From Bdellovibrionales bacterium (GTDB lineage Bacteria > Bdellovibrionota > Bdellovibrionia > Bdellovibrionales > UBA1609): 64,000 bases of DNA. The stretch spans positions 124,001 through 188,000 of the forward strand of contig DAIDIG010000006.1 of assembly GCA_027459485.1 (NCBI GenBank), written 5' to 3'. The notes beneath the pieces were generated by a model that was not told the origin of the DNA, ran no database searches, and saw only the letters and a list, made by a program, of their open reading frames with translations. Positions within the stretch are counted from its first letter, which is position 1. Every line of letters starts with the position of its first letter. Positions 3,585-58,739 of the stretch are shown piece by piece. The translations under genes were made by a program, and so were the position numbers.

Positions 3585-3821
3585 TTAATGTTTCACGCTT
3601 TTGTTCGATTCCGAGCCGATGTTTTTGACCAATGAGTTCAGCTTCGATCGAATCGCCTCTTGCGCTTCGCCGTATTTCTGCTGCACGAGGCCTGCAATCT
3701 GACCAATATCGCCTTTCGTTTTTTCAAGATCGTCTTCGGTTAACTCTCCCCACGCTTCTCTGATTTTGCCTTTGACTTGGGCCCACTTCCCGCTCGAGAT
3801 GTTTTCATTCATTATGGCCAT
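3585..3821 (-). CDS. CsbD family stress-response protein
   Basis: A 78-residue CsbD-like protein: small, hydrophilic and helical, with the family core KWAQVKGKIREAWGELTEDD followed by TKGDIGQIAGLVQQKYGEAQE. CsbD-family proteins accumulate under general stress; their biochemical role is unknown. A strong AAGGAGA ribosome site precedes the ATG at 3821; the second ATG nine bases further in is an alternative start. First gene of a two-gene unit with the ElaB-like protein, about 70 bases downstream of a good sigma-54 promoter. Confidence 0.93.
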   Translation of the reverse strand: MAIMNENISSGKWAQVKGKIREAWGELTEDDLEKTKGDIGQIAGLVQQKYGEAQEAIRSKLNSLVKNIGSESNKSVKH

Positions 3822-4015: not shown

Positions 4016-4315
4016 GTGAATATCACTTACGAGATGTTTTTAAACTATCTTAAGCGACGGGAGCGTGATCTCGCGACATTGCGCGAGTCGCTCCGGCAGA
4101 ATCGCGTCGCAGAATTTGCGCGCATCGGTCATCAAGTTTCAGGTAACGCCGCGACTTTCGGCTTTTTTGATCTTGAAAGTATAGCGCGCAAGATTGAAGA
4201 AATCGGTGAACGTGAACTGCAAACAAAAGGTTCAGTTTTAGTGCGGGAATTTGCGAACTGGCTGAAATCCGCCCGCGAACAATTAGGACCTTCGCCGCAG
4301 ATTGCGCAATTCTAA
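4016..4315 (+). CDS. Histidine phosphotransfer (HPt) domain protein
   Basis: A 99-residue stand-alone HPt domain. The phospho-accepting histidine is His39 in ARIGHQVSGNAATFG, followed by the helix DLESIARKIEE; this is the HxxxGxAxxxG pattern of HPt modules that relay phosphate between receivers. Start is GTG at 4016, about ten bases after AGAGGAGAG. It converges on and overlaps by four bases the NtrC-type regulator encoded opposite; partnership with that regulator's receiver is a reasonable inference from position. No kinase gene lies next to it. Confidence 0.85.
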   Translation: MNITYEMFLNYLKRRERDLATLRESLRQNRVAEFARIGHQVSGNAATFGFFDLESIARKIEEIGERELQTKGSVLVREFANWLKSAREQLGPSPQIAQF

Positions 4316-5772
4316 GGAGCAAGGGCATCTGGCTCGGACATTCGCATCCGCTTATAAAGCGTTTTGCGATCGATGCCGAGTTCGCGCGCGGTCTTGTCTT
4401 TTGCACCGGCGTTTTTCGAAACGGCGTATTCAACGTATTTCTGAATGACGTCCTGCAGTTTGAGCAGGGTGCCTGTGTACTTCACTACGAAATCGCCTTC
4501 GGCATAATTTGAAGCGGTCGTTGGGGCGGGGGCTTCCATCACGACGAGGTCAGGGTTGGCCATCAGAAAATTCGAGTATTTCACTTCGCTTTCGACCGCC
4601 ATCACGACGGCGCGTTCGACGGCGTTTTCGAGTTCGCGAACATTCCCGCGCCACGGGTATTCAAGCATAAACTTAATCGCCTCTTTCGAAAACGTGCGCG
4701 CGGGCGAGCCATTTATGACCGCATATTTTTTTAAAAAAGATTCTGCTAGCGGGAGCACATCTTCGGGGCGCTCACGTAAAGGCGGCAAAGAGATCGGTAT
4801 GACATTGAGGCGATAATAAAGATCTTCTCGAAATTGGCCCGCCGCAATTTCTTGAAGCAAATTCTTGTGTGTGGCGGAAACTATTCGCACATCGATGGAT
4901 CTCAGTTGGTTTTCGCCCACACGCTGAATTTTCTTCTCTTGTAACACGCGTAATAGTTTAGCCTGAAGCTGCAAACTCAAGTCGCCGATCTCATCGAGAA
5001 ACAGGGTGCCGCCTTCGGCATCTTCAAACAAGCCGGCTTTCTTTTCGTGCGCGCCGGTGAACGCTCCTTTAGCGTGGCCAAAAAGCTCCGATTCGAGAAG
5101 ATTTTCGGGTATGGCGGAACAGTTGATGGCCACAAACGGCCCGCCATTTCGCGGGCTTTCGGCATGAACAAACCGTGCGAGCACTTCTTTACCCGTCCCG
5201 CTTTCACCGAAAATAAAAATATTGGCGGTGCTGCGAGCCACCTTCTTTGCAATATCCAAGGCATTCAAGAACTTCGGGCTTCGCCCGATGATATTGCTAT
5301 AAGCCGCTGCATCGCCGCTGCGAATGTGCTGCCTCAATTCGGTTATGTTTTCTTTCAGAGAGTTCAAATGAAGCGCCCGTTCAACCGAAACTAAAAGCTG
5401 CGGAAAGTGCAACGGCTTCACAAGAAAATCGTAAGCGCCCTTCTTTATTGCGTTCACTGCGATTTCGACGGATTTAGAAACTGTGATGAGAATTATCGGC
5501 AAATCCGGCTTGATCCGCTTCATCTGTTCGATGAATTCAAACCCCGACATATTGGGCAGCTGCAAATCCGTAATTAGGACATCCCAATTATTGTCGCCAT
5601 TTTTAGTTTGAACGGCAGCCATCGCGCTTTCGGCGTCAGAAAAGGCCGTGACGCGAAACCCTTTTGGTTGAAAAAATGCGCGAATCAAATCGAGCGTATC
5701 CGGATCGTCGTCTACGATGGCAAGGTGGCGGATCTGACTTTGTTTCTCAGAATTCAATTGTGCGTGCTCCAC
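4312..5772 (-). CDS. Sigma-54-dependent response regulator, NtrC family
   Basis: Three-domain activator of 486 residues. The receiver has acidic pocket VDDD and phospho-acceptor Asp69 in [12 protein letters not shown]. The AAA+ domain has Walker A GESGTGKE, the sigma-54-contacting GAFTGA loop and Walker [13 protein letters not shown] Fis-type helix-turn-helix ends [15 protein letters not shown]. It hydrolyses ATP to open sigma-54 promoters. Start is GTG at 5772 or TTG at 5757; the latter has GGAG at a better distance. Sigma-54 promoters lie on both sides of the locus (3898-3913 and 5896-5911), so the flanking small envelope-protein genes are the likely targets. Confidence 0.95.
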
Positions 5773-5846: not shown

Positions 5847-5895
5847 GTAAATTACACCGAGATAAATAAAACGATAACGGTGATTCGAGTGAGAG

Positions 5896-5911
5896 TGGAA
5901 TCGTCCTTGCT
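5896..5911 (+). promoter_or_regulatory. Sigma-54 promoter of the DUF1328 gene
   Basis: TGGAATCGTCCTTGCT: the TGG and TTGCT elements are at exact -24/-12 spacing, though the CAC of the consensus -24 box is not kept. It predicts transcription from about 5922 into the DUF1328 gene at 5989. Confidence 0.65.
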
Positions 5912-5988: not shown

Positions 5989-6171
5989 ATGATTCGTGCC
6001 GCAATTTCTTTTTTCGTACTGGCGATCGTAGCCTTTATTTTCGGCGCGTACGGTATTGCGGGAATATCAATGGAAATCGGTCGCATTTTACTTTTTGTAT
6101 TCCTGGTGCTCGCGGCTGTCTCATTTATCGGTGCGCTGTTAACGGGCCGCACACCGCGACAATTGCCCTGA
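5989..6171 (+). CDS. DUF1328 family small membrane protein
   Basis: A 60-residue protein with two membrane segments (AAISFFVLAIVAFIFGAYGI and ILLFVFLVLAAVSFIGALL) and a short tail GRTPRQLP, as in the YtjA/DUF1328 family of unknown function. The ATG at 5989 follows a perfect AGGAGG at 5977-5983; an in-frame ATG at 5941 lies upstream and is less likely. It lies downstream of a sigma-54 promoter, so it probably belongs to the stress regulon of the adjacent NtrC-type protein. Confidence 0.85.
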   Translation: MIRAAISFFVLAIVAFIFGAYGIAGISMEIGRILLFVFLVLAAVSFIGALLTGRTPRQLP

Positions 6172-6172
6172 C

Positions 6173-6200
6173 TAAAGTTTAGACAGATGTCAGCCGATAA
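6173..6200 (+). promoter_or_regulatory. Sigma-28 (FliA)-like promoter
   Basis: TAAAGTTT at 6173-6180 and GCCGATAA at 6193-6200 each match the flagellar sigma-28 consensus at all eight positions. The spacer is 12 bases instead of the usual 11. It starts two bases after the DUF1328 stop and points into the candidate small RNA, with predicted start near 6207. Confidence 0.6.
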
Positions 6201-6206
6201 ACGGCG

Positions 6207-6380
6207 CCTCGATACATTCGGCGCACGCGATCGGTTTTGGCTTCCTGGTTATTGCGTCCTTAGGATGGCACAGCTTGCAATAGTATCTAAACAAGTGATG
6301 ACAACGTCGTCCCCCCCGACAGTCATCACGGACCCATCCCCCCGAGACCTCGCTTTTCCCCCAAAGCGAGGTTTTTTTTT
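6207..6380 (+). ncRNA. Candidate small regulatory RNA with C-rich loops
   Basis: About 174 bases with no convincing coding frame. A weak 5' stem pairs GCGCC with GGCGC (6204-6224). A central hairpin pairs GTGATGAC (6295-6302) with GTCATCAC (6322-6329), with inner stem GTCG/CGAC and loop TCCCCCC (6310-6316). A linker contains ATCCCCCC (6336-6343). The terminator hairpin has loop TCCCCC (6357-6362). Three unpaired UCCCCC motifs are the form used by C-rich-loop small RNAs that pair with purine-rich ribosome-binding sites. A sigma-28-like promoter lies just upstream. No c-di-GMP riboswitch motif was recognised. The 5' end and function are inference. Confidence 0.6.
6347..6380 (+). terminator. Rho-independent terminator of the candidate small RNA
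   Basis: Perfect ten-base-pair stem ACCTCGCTTT / AAAGCGAGGT (6347-6356 and 6363-6372), loop TCCCCC, then a run of T to 6380. It also insulates the TolC gene that starts 45 bases later. Confidence 0.9.
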
Positions 6381-6424
6381 GCCATTTGACTAAGGCGCCT
6401 TCGCGGTTTGAACTGTAAGGACAA

Positions 6425-7732
6425 ATGATAAGGGTGGGGAATTTTCGCTACAATTTTACAACGCCATGGATATCCGCTTCATTTTTCTTGCTAACAGTTT
6501 TTGTATCGCCCGTATCTCGCGCAGCTGAAAAGCTCAGCCTTGAAGCCGCGCTTACAAAAGCGCTGGCCGCTAATCCGGATCTATTAGTCGCAAAAGCATC
6601 AGTTCGCGATGCGGCTGCGGCGGCCAATTCGATGAAGGCTCAAGACTTGCCGCTTCTTTCTGTTCAGTACCAGAACAGCCAAAGCGACGATGTGGCGACG
6701 CAACTGCCGGACGCGAATAACGCAATGGTGATGATCACCGAAAATCTCTTTAACGGCGGGCAGACGTTAGCCGAGATTCGAAAGCTCGAGCATTTCGAAG
6801 ATTCAGCGAAATCAAGTGCGCAACAGAAGCGCCTCGAAATTCTGGCGGCAGTAAAAGAAAGTTTTTACCGCGGGCTTTCAGCGAACGCGCAGGTGAACGA
6901 TTGGAAGGCGGCTCAAGCGGAGTTTTCGCGGCTTCTCAAACTCATGGCGCCGAAATTCACCGTTGGCCAAGTGCCGCAATACGATTACGCGAAAATTAGA
7001 ATTTCTCTGCATTCGTATTTGCAAGAGCAGTTAAAAGCTACCGCGTCGTTGGGCCATGAGCTACATGTTCTAGGCGCGGCGATGGGCGGCGAGCCACCGA
7101 CGGAGTTGTCGGGCGTCGACGAAATACCGCGACCGCCGCAGATCGATGTTGAAAAGGTGATGTCGAACATCTACGCGAATAGACCAGACGTGCAGGCTGA
7201 GAATTCACGCATATTGGCGCAGCAAGAAGAGGTGGCGCGTGCTCGGCGCGAGCGCCTGCCGAAAGTGACGCTTGAGGCGGACTACGGCTACGGCGGTTTA
7301 ACTCCGCAAGACATGTGGACACTCGGCTGGGGCACAACGGCGACCGTGTCTATGCCGCTTTTTGACTTTGGCGGCATTTCGTCGGACGTGCGCCGCGCGC
7401 GCGCAAGGCTCAATATCGAAGAGTATAGAGACGAAGCTCTTCGCCTAAAAATTCGAACTGAAGTTTACGACACACTCGAACGGGTGCGTATCGCGTGGGC
7501 CGGCTACAAAGCCTCACTGGAAAATTTGCCGGTCGCAAAACGCGCGTACGCCTCGTCGCTGCGGCGGTACCGCACGGCACTTGCGCCCATGACGGAGCTC
7601 AGCGACGCGCACACGCTTTTGATTGAATCGAGACTCGATCGCGAGCGCGCTTTGGCTGAATATCAGATTGCGCTTACTCAGTTGCGACTTGTGTTGGGAG
7701 ATGAAGCGGCTCTCAAAAAGGCCGCGCCGTGA
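6425..7732 (+). CDS. TolC-family outer-membrane efflux protein
   Basis: A 435-residue TolC/OprM-type channel. A signal peptide (ISASFFLLTVFVSPVSRAAE) precedes a helical body with the family start LSLEAALTKALAANPDLLVA and duplicated OEP repeats, including the second-repeat motif NRPDVQAENSRILAQQEEVA and a beta-strand LEADYGYGG. It would form the outer-membrane exit duct of the RND pump encoded next. AAGGA precedes the ATG. The next gene overlaps by four bases (GTGA), indicating an operon in the order channel, adaptor, pump. Confidence 0.93.
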   Translation: MIRVGNFRYNFTTPWISASFFLLTVFVSPVSRAAEKLSLEAALTKALAANPDLLVAKASVRDAAAAANSMKAQDLPLLSVQYQNSQSDDVATQLPDANNAMVMITENLFNGGQTLAEIRKLEHFEDSAKSSAQQKRLEILAAVKESFYRGLSANAQVNDWKAAQAEFSRLLKLMAPKFTVGQVPQYDYAKIRISLHSYLQEQLKATASLGHELHVLGAAMGGEPPTELSGVDEIPRPPQIDVEKVMSNIYANRPDVQAENSRILAQQEEVARARRERLPKVTLEADYGYGGLTPQDMWTLGWGTTATVSMPLFDFGGISSDVRRARARLNIEEYRDEALRLKIRTEVYDTLERVRIAWAGYKASLENLPVAKRAYASSLRRYRTALAPMTELSDAHTLLIESRLDRERALAEYQIALTQLRLVLGDEAALKKAAP

Positions 7733-21511: not shown

Positions 21512-21899
21512 CGCAGCTCACTTAGGTCATCGCGAGTGGCGTCTCATCATGAGCCATTCGAGGAAAGTCCGGACTCCGTATGGGCAGCACAAGGGATAAC
21601 GTCCCTCCGTCGCGAGACGAGGAACAGTGGAACAGAAAGAATGTCCAGAGCATTGATCCTTGAAGCGGGCACGGGAGCTTCTTGGGGAGTTGCTGGAGTG
21701 AAAACAGCCAAACTCTGTGCGGAGCAAGATCAAATAGGGGAGCACGAGACTTGGGCAACCGAGTTTCACGCGCGGCCCGCGCGGACTCCCGGGTAGATCG
21801 CTGGAGGGTGCGAGCAATCGCACTCCTAGAGGAATGGTGGCCACGGTGCCGTTTCGGCGGCGTCGAACAGAATCCGGCTTACCGAGTGATCGCTGACTG
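21512..21899 (+). ncRNA. rnpB: RNase P RNA, bacterial type A-like
   Basis: Catalytic RNA that matures tRNA 5' ends. It contains the universally conserved GAGGAAAGTCCGGACTCC in the 5' part, GAGGAATGGTGGCCACGG in the 3' third and ACAGAATCCGGCTTACCG near the end. P1 is visible as CAGC-TCACT (21514-21522) pairing with AGTGA-tc-GCTG (21885-21895) with a two-base bulge. Length of about 388 is usual. A good promoter ends seven bases upstream and a strong terminator follows immediately. Confidence 0.97.
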
Positions 21900-58367: not shown

Positions 58368-58739
58368 ATGGCACTTACAAAAAATCTGGTTGAGAAATGT
58401 AAACGCGCACTTCTTGAGGCCAAAGCCGATATATTGAACCGTGTTCGAGACGTTCGAAATGATCTTCATTCATCAGAAGACGGCAAAGCCGGTGATGAAG
58501 GCGACCAAACGGTTCGAGCTCTGGCCGAAAGCGAAGCGTTGTCGAACAACGAACGGCTCCGTACACAGCTTGCCGAAATTGAAATGGCCTTGGCTCGGAT
58601 TGAAAACGGAACTTACGGCATTTGCGAAGAAACCGAAGAACCTATCGAACCGGACCGGTTGCTTGCGATTCCCTGGACTCGCTTGAGCATCGAAGGTGCC
58701 GAGATTCGCGAATCTGTAATGAAACGCTACGCTCGATAA
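58368..58739 (+). CDS. DksA/TraR-family protein without the zinc-binding cysteines
   Basis: A 123-residue protein with an N-terminal coiled coil (LVEKCKRALLEAKADILNRV, LRTQLAEIEMALARIENGTYG) and the degenerate finger CEETEEPIEPDRLLAIPWTR. DksA has four zinc cysteines; here only the first remains, the others being Thr, Ser and Ala-like positions. It would bind RNA polymerase through the secondary channel and tune transcription under starvation, as zinc-free DksA homologues do. The coiled-coil tip keeps acidic residues (GKAGDEGDQ). ATG at 58368 follows AGGGGG; that G-run could pair with the C-rich loops of the candidate RNA at 6207-6380 (inference). Confidence 0.85.
   Translation: MALTKNLVEKCKRALLEAKADILNRVRDVRNDLHSSEDGKAGDEGDQTVRALAESEALSNNERLRTQLAEIEMALARIENGTYGICEETEEPIEPDRLLAIPWTRLSIEGAEIRESVMKRYAR

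Follow-up and report, generated by a model that had tools for sequence, protein, structure and literature searches.

The window (the whole 64,000-nt stretch of DNA under analysis, from the 2.75 Mb, 34-contig Bdellovibrionales genome G000) encodes a real, conserved non-coding RNA of Bdellovibrio-type bacteria, as judged from the conservation of its fold and loops among relatives. We read this small RNA (sRNA) as an Hfq-independent antisense regulator that would act through C-rich loops, a member of a sigma-54 family that in this species is probably driven by sigma-28; to this reading as a whole we assign a probability of about 0.7. Its footing is a conserved structure, invariant C-loops, identifiable promoter elements, no detectable Hfq in the genus genomes and a bias in which genes carry G-run Shine–Dalgarno (SD) sites, all of them properties of the genomes themselves.

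Table 1. Features of the sRNA locus, its surroundings and the window (window coordinates)
Feature	Position	Strand	Basis and remarks
CsbD-like gene	3585–3821	−	Pfam
Sigma-54-type box before CsbD	3914	−	11/12
HPt-domain protein	4016–4315	+	Pfam; adjoins activator
Sigma-54 response-regulator activator (receiver, Sigma54_activat, HTH_8)	4312–5772	−	Pfam; candidate regulator
Sigma-54-type promoter GTGGAATCGTCCTTGCT	5895–5911	+	Before DUF1328, 9/12; 14/17 bases kept in G005
DUF1328 gene	5989–6171	+	Pfam; directly upstream of sRNA; order kept in G005
Sigma-28 (FliA) type promoter TAAAGTTT-N12-GCCGATAA	6173–6200	+	No mismatch; predicted start ~6207
Predicted long transcript, sigma-28 promoter to terminator	6207–6380	+	Inferred; start from −10 position
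Sigma-54 promoter remnant TGGCACAGCTTGCAATAG	6266–6283	+	GG-to-GC spacing 8, not 10; aligned with G005
Conserved sRNA core	6294–6378	+	Covariance-model match (R2)
Hairpin 1	6295–6329	+	Outer stem 6295–6302/6322–6329, inner stem 6306–6309/6317–6320
Hairpin 1 loop TCCCCCC	6310–6316	+	Fold; stems covary
Linker, mostly single-stranded	6330–6343	+	C-run 6338–6343
Intrinsic terminator	6344–6380	+	Stem 6344–6356/6363–6375 (13 pairs), then T-run
Terminator loop TCCCCC	6357–6362	+	Terminator scan; stem covaries
TolC-like gene	6425–7732	+	Pfam
Bacterial RNase P RNA class A	21514–21899		Rfam scan, 208.7 bits

Folding of the plus strand (6200–6380) yields a structure that beats 200 of 200 shuffled sequences (z −3.3). 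The three C-runs of the sRNA (6311–6317, of which 6311–6316 lie in loop 1; 6338–6343 in the linker; 6358–6362 in the terminator loop) have mean unpaired probabilities in the core RNA of 0.86, 0.69 and 1.00, respectively. Runs of at least five C number 321 on both strands of 464 kb (the window and a further 400-kb sample of its genome), and three of them within 90 nt occur at a single place, the sRNA; among the four terminators of the window, the only one with a C-loop is likewise that of the sRNA. The sequence-only reading had described C-rich loops in both main hairpins and a C-rich linker between them, which fold, terminator scan and unpaired probabilities all bear out. It had also outlined a non-coding unit of 174 bases ending in a strong terminator; the terminator stands, but conservation covers the ~90-nt core rather than all 174 nt. 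A 68-aa frame (6187–6393) spanning the RNA is disfavoured as coding by indels in relatives and by covariation.

Relatives of the RNA were sought with covariance models. The first of these (R1), restricted to the terminator pairs, returned many doubtful matches; a third match in G004 and a second in the window's own genome proved coding-looking or unrelated on reading and were discarded. Because MAFFT misaligned hairpin 1, the second model (R2) was built from the three alignable copies only (G004a, G004b and G002, the window not being used), with the remaining copies fitted to it. With R2 the window scores 43.8 bits (genome-wide E 1.2e-6), and no pair is non-standard. At E ≤ 3.7e-6, a search of 140 genomes of the order yields 14 loci distributed over 10 of them: the three training copies, the window, a locus in G001 and nine copies in the six genomes of g60, one genus of a second family; copy number reaches three per genome (in G123, with two in G124). 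Three g60 genomes have a copy ~500–600 nt from the tmRNA gene. At E ≤ 0.05 matches extend to 34 of the 140 genomes, several being on reading only C-loop terminators or unrelated hairpins. Within the window's genus, G001, G002, G004 (two copies) and G005 present the same layout of C-loop hairpin, C-rich linker and C-loop terminator; the G005 copy is syntenic with the window (DUF1328, then sRNA) and breaks off within the terminator, where the contig ends. DNA searches with the whole 213-base stretch recover only same-genus traces, and none among plasmids.

Stem pairing is maintained across these copies by compensatory change. In alignment A7 (15 copies fitted to R2, a procedure that favours the R2 structure, which was itself set without the window and g60 copies), 96.2% of 340 cells are paired and 20 of 23 pairs have changed on both sides; none of 500 shuffles is as good, and slid structures pair 35–55%. 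RNAalifold run on A7 predicts 23 pairs, 21 of them with compensatory change. Throughout, the loops and linker remain C (CCCCC in the loops) while the stem sequences change, the pattern expected from selection on the C-motifs. A covariance search across relatives, proposed by the sequence-only reading as a check, returns conserved hairpins and C-loops with covarying stems.

Reaching further, a model from the 15 A7 copies (R3) was run on 368 genomes of the phylum and matched 78 at E ≤ 0.01. Of the loci new to this search, the one in G100 (6e-8) is the clearest and has the full layout, and a copy-like RNA in G166 (7e-6), which lies outside the order, suggests from sequence that the sRNA is spread wider than the order. 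Outside the two families the model matches weaken, many of them being C-loop terminators after coding genes. At six loci of Bdellovibrio-type genomes, C-rich 3′ UTRs with C-loop terminators directly follow coding genes; these are possibly 3′-UTR-derived C-loop RNAs.

Upstream of the core, the motif GG-N10-GC is found in 13 of 21 loci examined, mostly ending in TTGC and placed such that the GC lies 15–19 nt (16 nt in most) before the core start; in two further loci it lies 5 and 12 nt before the core. It is properly positioned in 13 of the 15 A7 copies, and also in G100. We take this spacing, by consensus, to be that of sigma-54 −24/−12 promoters. The six loci without it are those of the window, G005, G002 (AG replaces GG), G008, G059 and G060. 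RpoN was found in 128 of the 140 order genomes, including G000, and not in G002, a genome 78% complete. Ancestral control of the sRNA was most likely by sigma-54, to judge from these promoter motifs. In the window and G005, 17 of the 18 bases of the remnant block TGGCACAGCTTGCAATAG are common to both, though its spacing should be fatal.

A palindrome, TGTCTCANNNTGAGACA, lies upstream of some copies; in each of the six genus genomes it is strongly over-represented (6–19 sites per genome with at most one mismatch, against 0–1 for the reversed control). Its sites stand near pilin-like and secreted-protein genes, and we read it as a transcription-factor site. As a sigma-54 enhancer it was rejected, a sigma-54-like box being nearby in 4 of 18 loci against 34% of 3000 random places; with a stricter box the figures are 3 of 18 loci and 194 of 3000 places.

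A near-perfect flagellar-type promoter had been claimed ahead of the RNA, and the claim holds: TAAAGTTT-N12-GCCGATAA occurs without mismatch once in the entire genome, at this very position, and its box score of 13/13 is reached by 0 of 200 shuffles of the 420-nt upstream region. With three mismatches allowed, a box every 64 kb is about what chance would give (0.77 expected) and the reversed control is equally frequent genome-wide (39 and 41 against 41 and 37), so that weaker sigma-28 sites carry no meaning. Ten further sites in the genome have one or two mismatches, nine of them 5–41 nt and one 157 nt before an ORF start, and from these positions a sigma-28 promoter class with N12 spacing looks real in G000. 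Several precede lipoprotein-like or secreted-protein genes; at five loci boxes of this grade stand directly before such genes, as in the attack-phase regulon of strain HD100. FliA is present in G000 and in five of the six genus genomes. In B. bacteriovorus, attack-phase promoters follow TTAAG-N16-CCGATA in 92 of 140 cases (PMC3627812), and the window promoter, TAAAG-N16-CCGATA, has this same spacing.

The suggested tie to a motility sigma factor is upheld for this genome by box, spacing and the presence of FliA, but it is not a property of the RNA family, the box being unconserved. Among the copies and candidates examined, only the window genome has a perfect sigma-28 box at the sRNA. In G005, the only syntenic relative, the box is degenerate (10/13, equalled by 20 of 200 shuffles), identity with the window being 21/28 in the box region and 34/68 in the stretch after it; in the 19 other copies or candidates none stands out (best G004b, 10/13 at −405, 29 of 200 shuffles). 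On these comparisons the sigma-28 link is specific to the window lineage.

Other origins for the RNA have to be weighed against this reading. The sRNA could arise by processing from the 3′ end of a DUF1328 mRNA made from the sigma-54 promoter at 5895 under the neighbouring activator, with the sigma-28 box a decoy or minor promoter; we regard this as unlikely, while granting it real weight. The terminator scan found no terminator between DUF1328 and the sRNA, so that read-through could supply the RNA, and the sigma-54 box before DUF1328, the adjoining activator (83% identical and syntenic in G005) and the DUF1328–sRNA order are all kept in G005. DUF1328 is, however, present at just one of 20 other loci (again G005), most copies have a promoter of their own, and the sigma-28 box is perfect. 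Twenty sigma-54-type boxes occur at 10/12 across the window, which makes the score weak evidence when taken by itself. At the same 20 loci of other copies and candidates, window neighbours recur in G005 only (one further locus, L120, has a partial regulator match), hence the sRNA is not tied to one gene. The CsbD, HPt, sigma-54 activator and DUF1328 genes between 3260 and 6171 resemble a small sigma-54 stress block. On the other side of the RNA, the TolC-like start codon stands 50 nt past the terminator and shares its strand, which would suit an RNA that served not independently but as leader or attenuator of the TolC operon (6425). Synteny largely refutes this, leaving it scarcely credible: in G005 the TolC homologue follows a permease-like frame on a different contig, with the sRNA still found behind DUF1328, and the TolC gene is found in no other genome of 59 at the cut-off used, although G001, G002 and G004 carry the sRNA. 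The TolC-like protein has one named relative (68% identical), on a Bdellovibrionales metagenome contig.

The C-motifs themselves could be explained differently. They might bind a protein, or the opposite strand, which would show GGGGGA in its loops, might form a CsrA-type sponge with GGA loops; this is improbable given that the terminator T-run lies on the sRNA strand in the strong copies displayed, with the promoters on that strand too, though a C-binding protein keeps a small probability. Very improbable is the notion that C-rich loops are a common terminator-loop type in these bacteria, devoid of meaning. It would account for the many weak model matches that are C-loop terminators after coding genes, yet not for the solitary C-loop among the window's own terminators, for a loop 1 and linker that are also C-rich and conserved in 15 copies, or for a triple C-run met once in 464 kb.

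An antisense RNA with C-loops would require G-rich partners, and these are found at ribosome sites. Genes were taken from a home-made caller in which every G-rich purine SD counts the same; gene starts and exported-like calls are crude. In G000, 27 of 407 genes have GGGGG at −4 to −17, against 1 of 407 for a control stretch upstream. Pooling sampled stretches of seven genomes, with expectation by permutation within genomes, 37 of 63 genes with a GGGGG SD are exported-like where 20.1 are expected (1 of 5000 permutations as high), as are 67 of 158 with GGGG (51.0 expected; 12 of 5000); for GGAGG the count is 33 of 94 (29.8 expected; 1330 of 5000) and for AGGA 24 of 81 (26.0 expected; 3679 of 5000). 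The GGGGG export bias is consistent with a C-loop RNA that targets envelope and secreted proteins; it is, however, about equal in genomes lacking a clear copy (15 of 28 exported-like in four such genomes, 22 of 35 in three with one) and so need not come from the sRNA. Three G-rich start sites had been named as possible targets, and all exist (58368, 33716 and the minus-strand 21411 frame); by reading, the frames at 58368 and 33716 are without an exported-like N-terminal segment. The underlying idea, that C-loops pair with G-rich ribosome sites, fits the conserved C-motifs and the GGGGG at ribosome sites. Hfq (TIGR02383) was detected in 0 of 6 genus genomes, with 5 of 14 control genomes positive.

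In the mechanism we propose, the ~90-nt core would act in trans, any of its three C-motifs pairing with a G-run at the SD of a target mRNA; pairing would block ribosome binding and so lower the yield of those proteins whose mRNAs have G-run ribosome sites, among which exported and envelope proteins are over-represented. Hfq would be dispensable, given the strength of loop contacts made of GC pairs only. Most copies in the order would start from a sigma-54 promoter, whereas in the window species, where that promoter has lost its spacing, the start is now most likely the sigma-28 promoter ~80 nt upstream, which would link the sRNA to the flagellated phase. A second source may be read-through out of DUF1328, a gene driven by sigma-54. 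Transcription, the promoter used, pairing, repression and the target set are all what we infer in this scheme. More tentatively, with the odds somewhat against it, the whole could amount to an undescribed Bdellovibrionota family, originally under sigma-54 and kept in one to three copies, for Hfq-free shutdown of exported-protein synthesis from G-run-led mRNAs, rewired in the window lineage to sigma-28 and there damping envelope-protein translation in the motile phase. If true, this would be a tangible example of an sRNA whose sigma factor differs from one relative to another, and it offers a testable rule, by which a G-run at the ribosome site would be the mark of an exported-protein mRNA.

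The sRNA family is apparently undescribed and its presumed mode of action familiar. No Rfam 15 family reaches gathering score on the sRNA, either in the window or in the 17 loci of other copies or candidates that were scanned, the only matches in these stretches (tmRNA, tRNA and RNase P) lying away from it, and the literature on small RNAs of Bdellovibrio and Bdellovibrionota in the open library yielded no description of it. If the reading is right, Bdellovibrio-type bacteria would have here their first C-loop antisense RNA family, as far as Rfam and the literature searched go. Rfam presumably holds an LhrC family; Rfam scans of the window give no LhrC match, and in the same scans no sequence relation to sX13 was found. 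The 6C RNA model (RF01066) scores 16.6 bits on the window against an Rfam cut-off of 47, and we know of no sigma-54 or sigma-28 promoter for 6C RNA/B11. PmaR has a C-rich loop, with target sites mostly away from the ribosome site. The Qrr sRNAs of Vibrio are like this family in having several copies and sigma-54 promoters, and unlike it in being Hfq-dependent and without its C-loop layout.

Among Bdellovibrio RNAs, FliA-type promoters precede three of the eight attack-phase sRNAs of B. bacteriovorus HD100 (PMC3627812), a trait shared with the window sRNA. As homologues these were rejected, the C-loop layout being present in none of the eight at the published coordinates in G071, which we took as HD100 on the strength of a c-di-GMP-I riboswitch at the merRNA coordinates, on the expected strand (PMC3627812). 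Closer parallels in action come from sX13, B11/6C and LhrC, whose modes of action are established by experiment (PMC3771888, PMC10470900, PMC4132741). The sX13 RNA of Xanthomonas (~115 nt) acts Hfq-independently through three C-rich loops on 4G targets near start codons, pilus genes among them; it thus resembles our sRNA in its C-rich loops, G-run target sites and freedom from Hfq, and differs in its three hairpins, its place beside polA and homologues reported mainly in Xanthomonadaceae (PMC3771888). In Actinobacteria, 6C RNA/B11 pairs two C-rich loops with G-tracts at ribosome sites, the same kind of loop and partner as proposed here (PMC10470900). LhrC of Listeria, in five copies under two-component control, carries UCCC in two loops and a linker and blocks translation of a surface protein with Hfq dispensable (PMC4132741). 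It comes from a Gram-positive and is LisR-dependent, is not described as sigma-54- or sigma-28-driven in the passages cited, and has UCCC motifs where the sRNA has C5–C7; in being multicopy and in spreading its motifs over two loops and a linker, it is nonetheless alike (PMC4132741). The Bdellovibrio-type sRNA has thus the same layout as LhrC, apparently arrived at independently.
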